Shown: positions 6,129 through 10,774, numbered from the stretch's first letter. The stretch is DNA of 64,000 nt from Arcobacteraceae bacterium (GCA_028687375.1 JAQUAG010000006.1:1-64000), one strand, 5' to 3'. A program made the numbers and translations. Notes: generated from the sequence alone by a model not told the origin.

Positions 6129-6557
6129 ATGAAAAAATTACTTTTAATTGGTTTACTCTGCACTTTTGTACTTGGAGATGGAAAAATTCCAATGGAACCA
6201 AATAAAATCTACATAATTGATTTTTTTGCTTCATGGTGTGCATCTTGTGAAAAAGAGGTTCCTATCCTTTCAAAACTAAATCAAAAGTTTCAAAAACAAA
6301 ATATTGAACTTATTGGTATAGATGTAGATAAAAAACCTGAAGATGGAGAAAAGTTTCAACATAAAATGGCTAAATATTTTACATATAAAGTGATAAATGA
6401 TACAAGCAATGAGATTATAAGTTCTTATAAACCAATAGGTATGCCAGCACTTTACCTCATAAAAAATAACCAAATATGTGGAAAAGTTTTTGGAGCTGTT
6501 CCAAATTTGGAAGAGAAACTTGATGAGCAAATAAAATTATGTAAGGAGCAAATATAA
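6129..6557 (+). CDS. TlpA-like periplasmic thioredoxin of the DUF3570 operon
   Basis: A 142-residue exported thioredoxin-fold protein. It has a signal peptide of about 16 residues and the active site WCASC (Cys37, Cys40), with a cis-proline in IGMPALY. It most likely keeps cysteines reduced in the periplasm. The ATG at 6129 has a purine-rich AGGGG site seven bases upstream and gives a clean signal peptide, so I prefer it to the longer reading from 6057. Its stop overlaps the start of the DUF4266 gene by one base. The Cys-rich tail of that lipoprotein is an obvious candidate substrate. Confidence 0.88.
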   Translation: MKKLLLIGLLCTFVLGDGKIPMEPNKIYIIDFFASWCASCEKEVPILSKLNQKFQKQNIELIGIDVDKKPEDGEKFQHKMAKYFTYKVINDTSNEIISSYKPIGMPALYLIKNNQICGKVFGAVPNLEEKLDEQIKLCKEQI

Positions 6558-6796
6558 TGAAAGAAAACAAAAATAAACTTATTGCGAAAGGTTTTTTATT
6601 GATTGTATCAATTATTCTTTTTAATGGTTGCGTAGAAACTGTGCAACCTTGGGAAAAAGGAACTTTAGCGAAAGAAACGATGAAAGAAGGCGGAGGGAAT
6701 AAACTATTAAATAAATATGATGACCATATTTATTATTCAAAAGAAGCTACTAAAAGTGGTGGAAATATTGGTGGAGGGGGTTGCGGATGCAATTAG
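6557..6796 (+). CDS. DUF4266 lipoprotein with Gly/Cys-rich C-terminus
   Basis: A 79-residue lipoprotein of the DUF4266 family. The lipobox LFNGC places the lipidated cysteine at residue 25. The conserved block VQPWEKGTLAKETM follows, and the protein ends in a Gly-rich tail closing with CGC before the final Asn (Cys76, Cys78). The tail could bind a metal, carry a modification or form a redox pair; function is unknown. It has a strong AAGGAG site and overlaps both neighbours, so translation of thioredoxin, DUF4266 and DUF3570 is coupled. Confidence 0.85.
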   Translation: MKENKNKLIAKGFLLIVSIILFNGCVETVQPWEKGTLAKETMKEGGGNKLLNKYDDHIYYSKEATKSGGNIGGGGCGCN

Positions 6797-7893
6797 GAAA
6801 AATATCATTGTATGCTAGTTTATTTCTAGTGGGAAGTTCAGCTTTTAGTGAAGATTATATCAATGTTCAAGTTTTACATTACAATGAAAATGATTCTAGG
6901 GTAAGTGTATTAGCTCCATCTGTTGAGATAAACAAAGAGTTAGGGACAGATTATACTTTAAATGTTAATGTAGTCGCTGATAGCGTAAGTGGTGCAAGTC
7001 CAACCTATTATGATACAACAAGTGGTGCATCAGCATACAGCAGAGGTACTCAAAATGACCCTACTAAAATAAAAAAAGGAAATGTTAGTTTTGAAGAACA
7101 AAGAACAGCAGTTGGGGCAAATTTAACGACAAGATTATCGAATCGTGATGAAGTTCAAACTAGAATAAATATGAGTGCTGAGCATGATTTTTACTCTGCT
7201 GAAGTAAGTGGGTCATATCTACATTATCTTGATGGTTCAAAAAATCAAAGTATAACTCTTGGCGGTTCATATCAAAACAACCAAATTTTAGTGAAAACAG
7301 ACGCATCAAGTGGTGCAAGTGAGAAGATGTCCAATAATGTCATCAATCTTCAAGCTGGTTTTTCTCAAGTTTTAAATAGTACAAGTGTAGCTAATATTGG
7401 AGTTTTCTATTCAAAAGAATCTGGCTATTTAAGTAGCCCTTATCACAACATAGTTAGAAATGGAAATACCATAGAAGCTGAATTAAAACCCGATGCGAAA
7501 ACAGGATATGGGGTAAAACTTGGCTATCAAAAAGCCCTTAGTGATACTATATCTTCACAATTTAGCTACAAATATTATAGCGATGATTGGGATATCAAGT
7601 CACATACTTTAGACTCACTATTTTATTATGAGTTGAATAGTAAAACAACTTTAGGTGGAGGAATACGATATTACACCCAAAGTAAAGCAAACTTTTACGC
7701 TGAAGATTTTACAACGCAAAAATTTGCATCAAGCGATGAGAGGGTAAGTAGTTTTAATGCTTTAACCTATAAAGCAAGTGTTGATTATAAAATTAGTGAT
7801 AAACTAAGCTATAATTTTGGGGCAAATCTTTATGATCAAAGCACTGGCTTACAAGCTACCTATTTTACAACAGGGATAAGATATAAATTTTGA
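6787..7893 (+). CDS. DUF3570 outer-membrane beta-barrel, predicted flavinylated
   Basis: A 368-residue DUF3570-family protein. It has a signal peptide ending near SAFSE, then alternating polar/hydrophobic strands typical of outer-membrane barrels, and a terminal phenylalanine as in barrel proteins sorted by BamA. Three D-x-x-S-G-A-S sequences are present (DNA 6979-6999, 7012-7032 and 7300-7320). They match the consensus that ApbE modifies with FMN, and apbE is the next gene. I chose the ATG at 6787, behind a G-rich site, over the TTG at 6781. The start overlaps DUF4266 by ten bases. Covalent FMN on this barrel is inference. Confidence 0.85.
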   Translation: MQLGKISLYASLFLVGSSAFSEDYINVQVLHYNENDSRVSVLAPSVEINKELGTDYTLNVNVVADSVSGASPTYYDTTSGASAYSRGTQNDPTKIKKGNVSFEEQRTAVGANLTTRLSNRDEVQTRINMSAEHDFYSAEVSGSYLHYLDGSKNQSITLGGSYQNNQILVKTDASSGASEKMSNNVINLQAGFSQVLNSTSVANIGVFYSKESGYLSSPYHNIVRNGNTIEAELKPDAKTGYGVKLGYQKALSDTISSQFSYKYYSDDWDIKSHTLDSLFYYELNSKTTLGGGIRYYTQSKANFYAEDFTTQKFASSDERVSSFNALTYKASVDYKISDKLSYNFGANLYDQSTGLQATYFTTGIRYKF

Positions 7894-8756
7894 TAAAAAA
7901 TATTTTTAAATTTGAGGCGATGACGACCCCTTGTGAGGTGATCATCTACTCATCAAATCAAGAGCTAGCTACAAATACGGCAAAAGAGATTTTGCAAAAC
8001 ACTAAAGAGCTGGAAAAAAAATATAATTATTTTAGTGATAATTCTATAATTTCTAAGATAAATAAACGTGAAATAAATATTCTTGATTTCCAAACAAAAG
8101 ATTTACTCCAAAGGGCAAAATCGTTTTATACCCTTACAAATAAAGCTTTTGATATTACAGTTGCTACCATCAAACCTCTTTTTGCCTTAGAAAATTTAGA
8201 AAAATTTGAATTAGACAAAGAGAAACTAATCCCTTTTGTAGGATGTGAACATTTTGTTATCAAAAAGAATAAAATCATATTCGATAACGATTTTACAAAA
8301 ATTGATTTAGGTGGAGTAGTTAAGGAATATGCGATTGATGAATCTATCAAAATACTCAAGAAAAGAAAAATAACAAGTGCTCTGATAAATTTTGGTGGTG
8401 ATGTGTATGCACTTGGAACAAAACCAAATGGGGAAAAATTCACTGTTGGGATCAAAAATCCACAAAATCCATCACTTCATCTCACATCTGTAGAACTTTG
8501 CGATATGGCACTTACCACTTCGGCTAATTATGAGAGAAATTATACGATTGAAAATAAGACTTTTTCCCATATAATTAATCCAAATAAATTCACAACAGAT
8601 ATTATTTCAGCCACTGTTATTTCACATAGTGCACTTATAAGTGGTGTGTATTCAACAGCTTTAATGTGTACGAGTGATTTACACTCAAAATATAGCACGA
8701 TAAAAATTGATAAAAATATGGAAGTAATTTATGAAAATTTTAATAGTAGAAGATGA
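7890..8756 (+). CDS. apbE: ApbE-family FAD:protein FMN transferase, no visible signal peptide
   Basis: Transfers FMN from FAD onto Ser/Thr of target proteins, using Mg2+. ApbE hallmarks are FDITVATIKPLFAL, IDLGGVVKEYAID, SALINFGGDVYALG, TTSANY and FSHIINP. The reading begins with TTG at 7890, inside the stop of the DUF3570 gene; an ATG at 7920 would cut conserved residues (FEAMTTPCEV). Unlike most bacterial ApbE proteins there is no signal peptide or lipobox in either version. The likely substrate is the DUF3570 barrel upstream. Its end overlaps the response-regulator gene by 26 bases. Confidence 0.9.
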   Translation: MIKNIFKFEAMTTPCEVIIYSSNQELATNTAKEILQNTKELEKKYNYFSDNSIISKINKREINILDFQTKDLLQRAKSFYTLTNKAFDITVATIKPLFALENLEKFELDKEKLIPFVGCEHFVIKKNKIIFDNDFTKIDLGGVVKEYAIDESIKILKKRKITSALINFGGDVYALGTKPNGEKFTVGIKNPQNPSLHLTSVELCDMALTTSANYERNYTIENKTFSHIINPNKFTTDIISATVISHSALISGVYSTALMCTSDLHSKYSTIKIDKNMEVIYENFNSRR

Positions 8757-9408
8757 CAAAAAAATAGCTTCGTTTTTAAAAAAAGGACTGGAAGAGGAGT
8801 ATTTTAATATTGATCTCACAAGCAACGGTGATGAAGCTATCTATTTGGCATCTGTAAATAGTTATGATGCAATTATTTTAGATATTATGATTGAAGGAAG
8901 CGATGGCTATGAAGTTTGTAAAAAGATAAGAAGATATAAAATAAAAACTCCAATTATAATGCTCAGTGCAAAAAGTACGATTGAAGATAAAGTCTCTTTT
9001 TTAAATCTTGGGGCAGATGATTATCTTACTAAACCTTTTAATTTTGATGAATTATTAGCAAGAATACGGGTTCAGTTACGAAAAAATGAACAAAAAGATA
9101 ATATTTTAGAAGTAGCAGATTTGGTACTTAATGTAACTACAAAAATAGTTACAAGGGGAGATAAAAGAATCAATCTTACTGCAAAAGAATACTCAATTTT
9201 AGAGTACCTTATGAGAAATAAAAATGCAATAATAGATGAATCAACTCTACAAGATAGTACAATTGGTTTTGAAGATAACCCAACAAATAGTAATATCTTA
9301 AATGTTTATATTTATCGTCTAAGAACTAAAATAGACAAAGATTTTGAACTTAAACTTATCAAAACATATAGAAGTCAAGGATTTAAAATAAGCGATGAAA
9401 ATATTTAA
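8731..9408 (+). CDS. OmpR-family response regulator
   Basis: A 225-residue two-component regulator. The receiver domain (1-120) has the acidic pocket VEDD, the phospho-acceptor Asp in IILDIM, and the conserved Lys in YLTKPF. The winged-helix DNA-binding domain follows, ending with YRSQGFK. It starts inside apbE behind GGAAG and its end overlaps the sensor-kinase gene by 14 bases, so it belongs to the DUF3570/apbE operon. It probably controls that operon, although no operator is evident. Confidence 0.92.
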   Translation: MKILIVEDDKKIASFLKKGLEEEYFNIDLTSNGDEAIYLASVNSYDAIILDIMIEGSDGYEVCKKIRRYKIKTPIIMLSAKSTIEDKVSFLNLGADDYLTKPFNFDELLARIRVQLRKNEQKDNILEVADLVLNVTTKIVTRGDKRINLTAKEYSILEYLMRNKNAIIDESTLQDSTIGFEDNPTNSNILNVYIYRLRTKIDKDFELKLIKTYRSQGFKISDENI

Positions 9409-10774
9409 AAATATCAAATTTAGGCTACTTGCTGTTCTCTTTATCTTTTTGTTTATTATTTTTTATGCTTTTGGATATCTTTTAGCATCATCTTTAAAAA
9501 AATCATACAACGACATAAACAATGCAACATTATCAACAATTACTAAAGATTTACAACATGAACTTCTAACGGAAAAATATGATATAGACAAATTTGAGAT
9601 TATTAAAAAAGAGTTTGATATTAATATTTTCTATGCTCAAATTTTAATAGTTGATGATAAGAATGTTACAATAAAATTAAAATCGAAAGATTTAAAAAAT
9701 AGCGTTATTCCATTTGATAGAAATGAGCTTTTAGAATTTTCAGGTAATACAGTTTATCTGAAAACAGGTTCTTTAGATAATATAAAATATATAAAAATCG
9801 CAACTATTGTACTAAAAAAGAATAACAATGACGATGCTATACTTTTACAATGCGCTATCCCTTTTGAGAAGCATAATCCATACGTCCATGAGGTTGAAAA
9901 TATTTTATGGTTTTGGTTACTACTACTTCTTTTTGTTGTTTTAATTATTGTATATTTTATGATTTCAAAATCGCTCTCTGCTACTAAACTCGTAGTTGAT
10001 GAAGTAAATCAAATCAAAATTGATGGACATTTTCACAAACTCAATACAACAGGTATTTCAAGTGAAATCGATGAGCTTATCAAAACATTTAATCTGCTTA
10101 TTTATAACTTACAAAATTCCTATAAAAAAGTAAAAGATTTCGGACAAAACGCTTCCCACGAGCTCAAAACTCCCCTTACGATTATAAGGGGTGAGATAGA
10201 AGTTGGACTTAGGAAAGAGCGTTCAAATGGTGAATATAAGGTAATCTTACAATCACTTATGGGTGAAGTGGAACTCCTTCAAGAGATAATAGAAAAGATA
10301 CTTTTCCTCTCAAGTAATGCAAATGAAGATATTATTAAAAATTTTGAAGAGGTTTATATTGATGAGATTTTTAGTGAAGCTATCAAAGAAAAAACGCAAC
10401 TAGCTTTTGCAAAGAATATTAGATTAAATATTGTTTCACTTGAACCGCTTACTAAATTAGGTAATCCAACTTTACTAAAAATTGCCATAACAAATCTCCT
10501 TGACAACGCAATAAAGTATTCAAAAGAAAATCAATCTATCAATCTAACGTTAGATAATAATAGTTTAATAATAGAAGATTTTGGTTGTGGAATACCAACT
10601 AATGAGATTGAAAAAGTTTTCGATAGATTTTATCGAGTACAGAAAATAAAAAACTATTCAAAAGGGAATGGTTTAGGATTAGCAATAGTAAAGACTATAC
10701 TTGACATCCACCAATTTACTATCAAAGTAGAAAGTGTTGAAGATAGATATACGAAGGTAACTATCATTTTTTAA
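9395..10774 (+). CDS. Membrane sensor histidine kinase of the DUF3570 operon
   Basis: A 459-residue kinase paired with the OmpR-type regulator. It has a transmembrane helix at about residues 9-31, a periplasmic sensor region of about 130 residues, a second transmembrane helix near 170-190, a HAMP-like linker, the H-box ASHELKTPLTIIRGE and the ATPase domain with N-box (ITNLLDNAIKYS), DFGCGI and GNGLGLAIV. The sensor domain has no family I can name. It ends 27 bases from the convergent DHOD-like gene. Confidence 0.93.
   Translation: MKIFKNIKFRLLAVLFIFLFIIFYAFGYLLASSLKKSYNDINNATLSTITKDLQHELLTEKYDIDKFEIIKKEFDINIFYAQILIVDDKNVTIKLKSKDLKNSVIPFDRNELLEFSGNTVYLKTGSLDNIKYIKIATIVLKKNNNDDAILLQCAIPFEKHNPYVHEVENILWFWLLLLLFVVLIIVYFMISKSLSATKLVVDEVNQIKIDGHFHKLNTTGISSEIDELIKTFNLLIYNLQNSYKKVKDFGQNASHELKTPLTIIRGEIEVGLRKERSNGEYKVILQSLMGEVELLQEIIEKILFLSSNANEDIIKNFEEVYIDEIFSEAIKEKTQLAFAKNIRLNIVSLEPLTKLGNPTLLKIAITNLLDNAIKYSKENQSINLTLDNNSLIIEDFGCGIPTNEIEKVFDRFYRVQKIKNYSKGNGLGLAIVKTILDIHQFTIKVESVEDRYTKVTIIF

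Follow-up and report, generated by a model that had tools for sequence, protein, structure and literature searches.

The window, the 64,000-nucleotide stretch of an Arcobacteraceae genome analysed here, contains a cluster that very probably makes an outer-membrane barrel with up to three flavins, encoded next to an ApbE FMN transferase that appears to lack an export signal. The main interpretation, a flavinylated DUF3570 protein beside ApbE, is not new. New here are a third flavinylation motif conserved across several campylobacterial families, the predicted position of the motifs on the outer face, and the repeated pairing of a predicted exported barrel with a signal-less ApbE.

The DUF3570 cluster and its flavinylation motifs

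All six cluster genes lie on the + strand with overlapping ends, which suggests coupled synthesis. The features of the cluster are:

6129..6557, + strand: thioredoxin-like protein, exported (TlpA/ResA type), WCASC active site, 142 aa (PF13905, E 3.6e-15; PF00085, E 3.1e-14)
6557..6796, + strand: DUF4266 lipoprotein, 79 aa, lipobox LFNGC, C-terminus GGGGCGCN (PF14086, E 1.8e-16)
6782..6796, + strand: overlap of the DUF4266 and DUF3570 genes, the CGCN-stop codons holding the DUF3570 ATG (sequence)
6787..7893, + strand: DUF3570 protein, 368 aa, ATG at 6787, Sec signal peptide and predicted 16-strand outer-membrane beta-barrel, ending in F (PF12094, E 2e-59; strand analysis)
6979..6999, + strand: motif 1, DSVSGAS, residues 65-71, in a predicted external loop joining strands 3 and 4 (motif search; alignment; strand parity)
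7012..7032, + strand: motif 2, DTTSGAS, residues 76-82, same predicted loop as motif 1 (strands 3-4) (motif search; alignment)
7300..7320, + strand: motif 3, DASSGAS, residues 172-178, in a predicted external loop joining strands 7 and 8 (motif search; alignment)
7890..8756, + strand: ApbE FMN transferase of 288 aa, starting at a TTG that overlaps the DUF3570 stop, without a signal peptide (PF02424, E 1.5e-51)
8731..9408, + strand: response regulator, OmpR/CzcR type (family match)
9395..10774, + strand: sensor histidine kinase, CzcS type (family match; neighbour comparison)

The original prediction had listed a thioredoxin-like protein, a Cys-tailed lipoprotein and a two-component system in this operon, and all three were matched (PF13905, PF14086, and a regulator with its kinase). 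The DUF3570 protein scores 201.9 bits against a PF12094 cut-off of 25 and covers positions 27-397 of the 427 in the profile; the ApbE scores 176 bits against a PF02424 cut-off of 25.6. Three conserved motifs in the DUF3570 protein fit the consensus D-x-x-[ST]-G-A-[ST]. These D-x-x-S-G-A-S sequences lie exactly at the predicted coordinates, with apbE directly downstream, and the motif occurs in no other window ORF of at least 100 aa.

The family has been studied before. Méheust et al. (2021) reported two conserved [ST]GA[ST] motifs in 228 ApbE-associated DUF3570 proteins and described a cluster of ApbE, DUF3570, a thioredoxin-like protein and DUF4266 with a C-terminal CXC, often with DsbD (PMC8238504). 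The Chlorobium luteolum DUF3570 protein was flavinylated at two motifs by its own ApbE in E. coli, and only a double Ser-to-Ala change abolished flavinylation (PMC8238504). For the family, flavinylation of DUF3570 by the ApbE next to it was thus already established; the original prediction had given DUF3570 only as associated and uncharacterised. The window DUF3570 protein is very likely flavinylated as well. The window cluster resembles the described system in holding all four families together, in the SGAS motifs of DUF3570, in the C-terminal CXC of DUF4266 and, among its relatives, in the adjacency of DsbD in several cases. It differs in having three motifs where two were reported, an attached two-component system, an ApbE without a signal peptide and with Gly at the triad Asp, and a DsbD that is absent from the cluster and encoded on another contig of the genome. 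Lack of a linked DsbD is a described sub-type, since 316 such clusters were counted (PMC8238504).

We aligned 17 campylobacterial DUF3570 proteins, which fall into two groups (group 1, n = 12; group 2, n = 5); members of group 1 share 37-83% identity with the window protein. All 12 group-1 sequences have motif 1, with D65, G69 and A70 invariant in the 12 campylobacterial homologues and in Vibrio, and motif 2 has the full consensus in 11/12. At motif 3 the D and both Ser are kept in 12/12 and the full consensus in 10/12 (SGSS in L025, SSAS in L026). The motifs are thus kept down to 37% identity and are not scattered among homologues, as anticipated. Group 2 has lost the Gly of motif 1 (e.g. DAISAAS), retains GAS at motif 2 in four sequences and has motif 3 deleted; the Vibrio protein retains motif 1 only and the Hymenobacter protein is without consensus motifs. 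Because motif 3 is deleted in group 2 and missing in Vibrio, the third site is a group-1 feature. Two Cys separated by 5-8 residues stand just before motif 3 in six homologues (L025, L029, L033, L034, L036, L037) and are absent from the window protein; the pair is a possible disulfide near the putative flavin site.

DUF3570 exceeds its cut-off in 10/397 sampled genomes of the phylum. ApbE occurs in 10/10 DUF3570 genomes versus 56/394 overall (P 1.6e-9), the association that the co-occurrence survey proposed with the prediction was meant to reveal. A nearer sample added DUF3570 proteins from further genomes of the same genus and one of another family, and a scan of genome contigs with a single protein query gave two loci. 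No DUF3570 cluster locus was found on viral contigs. Clusters from other phyla come from Vibrio and Hymenobacter plasmid records, to which a second plasmid search added nothing. The Hymenobacter plasmid copy seems frameshifted, as its apbE is split into two ORFs (L044:4170-5533) and the GCGCN tail of its DUF4266 is found in another frame only. One Arcobacter-like cluster, whose DUF3570 is 83% identical to the window protein, comes from a public MAG titled Helicobacter pylori PMSS1 (L023), a label that looks wrong.

These data also bear on whether the protein could be a plain porin or adhesin with chance motifs next to an unrelated apbE. Ser, Gly and Ala are abundant in beta-barrel sequences, which would favour chance occurrence, but in 200,000 shuffles of the DUF3570 protein two motifs arose once and three never, the motif positions are conserved among homologues, the co-occurrence with ApbE is strong (P above), and a DUF3570 relative is experimentally flavinylated. 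We rejected this explanation as having a negligible chance of being right. Proteins of the multi-flavinylated FMN_bind type likewise carry several predicted covalent FMNs on one exported protein (PMC8238504, PMC10339131); the window DUF3570 differs in having its motifs in predicted barrel loops and in lacking an FMN_bind domain (PF04205) by domain search.

The remaining core proteins are conserved in layout. A thioredoxin-like homologue occupies the matching position in nearly all related clusters compared. The DUF4266 protein ends in GCGCN, and the C-terminal CGC[N/R] is invariant in 18 homologues. The overlap sequence TG[CT]GGATGCA is present in 17/17 compared campylobacterial clusters; with the DUF3570 start codon inside the codons of the CGC[N/R] tail, the DUF4266 tail is double-coded there. 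The Vibrio DUF4266 keeps the CGCN tail without a gene overlap.

An ApbE without an apparent export signal

The window ApbE opens with LIKNIFKFEAMTTPCEV, has a stop codon two codons upstream and begins its ORF about 10 residues before the domain, leaving no room for a Sec, lipoprotein or Tat signal. The original prediction is supported on flavinylation but missed this lack of an export signal, which alters how the flavins would be attached. Signal peptides were judged here by hydrophobicity and by eye rather than with a trained predictor. By this measure the ApbE of 14/14 campylobacterial DUF3570 clusters has no signal peptide, and an in-frame stop lies at most 17 codons upstream (a count that leaves out L027/L024, whose ApbE lacks about 45 internal residues); the Vibrio DUF3570-linked ApbE also has none and opens right at the domain. 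The Hymenobacter DUF3570-linked ApbE has a signal peptide. Among 30 ApbE loci of the phylum, the 4 beside DUF3570 have no hydrophobic N-terminus and the other 26/26 carry a signal of the Sec or twin-arginine-like kind; in L071 and L076, where the mechanically called ORF begins upstream of the likely start, it appears at an internal Met. The omitted ApbE with the internal deletion (L024:1907-2638, the same as L027) accompanies a DUF3570 that keeps all three motifs, and its genome has a second, full-length cluster (L028).

In an ApbE tree, the group-1 and Vibrio enzymes and a set linked to EF-hand proteins come together (support 0.998), and the group-2 enzymes lie elsewhere (support 0.997), nearer to signal-bearing ApbEs. 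By this phylogeny, the DUF3570-linked signal-less ApbEs form two separate lineages. The window genome (99.7% complete) has a single ApbE, and no FMN_bind (PF04205) protein and no NqrB/RnfD was found in it; DUF3570 is thus the only substrate of a known family found, DUF2271 being outside the search.

The conserved ApbE triad is Ser241, His257 and Asp285 in V. cholerae and Ser257, His273 and Asp301 in Listeria FmnB (PMC12052999). HMMER alignments with PDB chains indicate that the window ApbE keeps Ser211 and His227 and has Gly252 aligned to the triad Asp, so that its activity is not assured. The position is Gly in 18/18 enzymes of this kind (10/10 from group 1, Vibrio L043 and seven EF-hand-linked ApbEs) and Asp in 26/26 signal-bearing and 5/5 group-2 ApbEs. 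Such a consistent change could mean that the cluster ApbE is no working FMN transferase and has another role, with the SGAS motifs serving something else. We regard this as very unlikely: Ser and His are kept in all, the consensus motifs are held despite strong divergence, ApbE is found in every DUF3570 genome, and the C. luteolum pair is active (PMC8238504), though its ApbE may have either Asp or Gly at this position.

From the lack of an export signal, the flavins would probably be attached in the cytosol, before the barrel is exported. The word barrel and the phrase 'cytosolic ApbE' are absent from PMC8238504, and we found no discussion there of the location of ApbE for the DUF3570 cluster. 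An ApbE without a signal peptide is also known from Klebsiella pneumoniae, where its substrate, a soluble fumarate reductase, stays in the cytosol (PMC12052999); the window DUF3570 differs in having a Sec signal and a predicted barrel. ApbE of the usual type, by comparison, is an exported enzyme that attaches FMN to secreted targets, and cytosolic expression failed to replace periplasmic ApbE in a knock-out strain (reviewed in PMC12052999). Both observations would suit an ApbE that reaches the periplasm by a route invisible in its sequence and modifies DUF3570 there before or during folding, in the way that NqrC and further exported substrates are modified. Against this, no campylobacterial or Vibrio cluster has a signal peptide or room for one, and two lineages have signal-less forms, set against the clear signals of the other ApbEs in the phylum, so we consider such a route unlikely.

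Some other signal-less ApbEs in the phylum stand apart from DUF3570: one set has EF-hand proteins as neighbours, and a single enzyme (L082) has an FMN_bind protein. Directly next to the signal-less sister group of the DUF3570-linked ApbEs are small proteins, most of them bearing EF-hands and lacking a signal peptide, that carry a conserved SQS[GS]AS motif (L077:5798-6265, L078:6826-7290, L079:5192-5458, L080:6719-7234, L081:5329-5856, L084:4746-5561 and L085:5560-6045; the variant in L084 is RQSGAC). They are a candidate new family of ApbE substrates, for which we found no matching report in the literature searched.

Predicted topology of the barrel

The DUF3570 protein has a signal peptide (N-terminus MQLGKISLYASLFLVGSSAFS), a C-terminal F and, by home-made strand scoring, 16 strands at intermediate settings. 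Strands were sought on alignments of 12, 17 and 19 sequences by alternating hydrophobicity with gaps penalised. All three sets gave 16 strands at intermediate penalties, or 15 where strand 2 was lost; under the harshest penalties strands disappear, and with them any reading of parity. From strand 3 to strand 16 the connections alternate between short ones (2-6 residues, few indels) and long ones (7-41 residues, many indels). The 41-residue connection from strand 3 to strand 4 holds motifs 1 and 2, and the 21-residue connection from strand 7 to strand 8 holds motif 3; both connections belong to the long side.

In outer-membrane barrels the long variable loops face the cell exterior. Parity, counted from the C-terminal strand, would thereby place all three motifs on the outer face; whether they face one compartment was a test proposed with the original prediction. 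Residues invariant in group 1 and Vibrio lean the same way: 28/38 fall within the long loops or the outermost third of the strands, a modest enrichment given that this region holds 190/345 residues. AlphaFold, run on full-length and mature DUF3570 with three closely related sequences, gave mean pLDDT values of 30 and 37, no confident fold, so that the topology rests on the strand analysis; a PDB search with the DUF3570 profile returned no usable relative.

The motifs could instead be flavinylated and face the periplasm or the barrel interior, forming a periplasmic electron relay with nothing at the surface. The thioredoxin-like protein, DUF4266 and DsbD are all periplasmic partners, and loops on the outer side may turn inward to the lumen, as loop 3 of porins does. 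However, parity puts every motif loop on the long-loop side in both the 15- and the 16-strand solutions, the opposite turns have just 2-6 residues, and the conserved residues lean to the motif side. We therefore hold an inward or periplasmic position to be rather unlikely and prefer the outer face. If this is correct, a functionally uncharacterised system gains a location for its flavins.

Proposed loading and electron route, and neighbouring genes

A Sec-exported protein usually receives its cofactor only once it has been exported, and the common view is that exported flavoproteins depend on periplasmic ApbE and on exported FAD. Should ApbE work in the cytosol here, a flavinylated chain has to cross SecYEG and BAM. 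To our knowledge, a Sec substrate with a covalent flavin would be without precedent. A fluorescein-maleimide label is similar to FMN in size. SecYEG has been found to translocate proOmpA labelled in this way (PMC11131593). The C. luteolum DUF3570 protein was recovered mainly in the pellet and purified in denatured form (PMC8238504), which indicates that a barrel not folded into the membrane can be a substrate. Together with the cytosolic appearance of ApbE, these observations favour loading before export.

We propose that the signal-less ApbE would use cytosolic FAD to place FMN on up to three Ser of the new, unfolded DUF3570 precursor. The flavinylated precursor would pass SecYEG, and BAM would fold the 16-strand barrel, leaving the flavins in or on the outer loops. 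On the periplasmic side, DsbD and the thioredoxin-like protein would reduce the CGC at the C-terminus of the DUF4266 lipoprotein. This lipoprotein would dock at the barrel, or perhaps thread its tail into it, and pass electrons to the flavins for transfer to a surface acceptor. A link between DsbD, the thioredoxin-like protein, the DUF4266 CXC and flavin was proposed earlier (PMC8238504). We infer the cytosolic timing, the external side, the route and direction of the electrons and the acceptor, and for the module as a whole, from flavin loading to the surface, we see slightly less than an even chance. DsbD adjoins the cluster in several relatives (L025, L039 and Vibrio, identified by Pfam; L041, identified by resemblance), and c-type cytochrome-like lipoproteins lie beside group-2 clusters only; both support electron transfer, which in the original prediction would run across or at the outer membrane with the lipoprotein as partner. 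MtrAB-type porin-cytochrome conduits offer an analogy of working only, a barrel with a periplasmic redox partner that moves electrons outward; the window cluster differs in its flavin and dithiol chemistry and has no haem motif (CXXCH) in its four core proteins.

As a general route, cytosolic ApbE would load flavin on the barrel, and SecYEG and BAM would deliver up to three FMNs to the surface, a proposal we advance tentatively, thinking it somewhat more apt to fail than to hold. If it holds, FAD need not be supplied to the periplasm, a covalent cofactor is in place ahead of Sec export, and the EF-hand proteins next to the sister ApbEs would be one more substrate family of a cytosolic branch.

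A response regulator is also found beside the cluster in the same genus and in some other families. Close relatives of the window two-component system adjoin an EptA-type phosphoethanolamine transferase elsewhere (L028:3618-5207, tested with PF08019; L077:8938-10494, L078:2686-4242 and L085:8717-10279, by resemblance), and the eptA of the window genome is on another contig. From these neighbours, the two-component system may govern the modification of lipid A and is not necessarily part of the flavin module.
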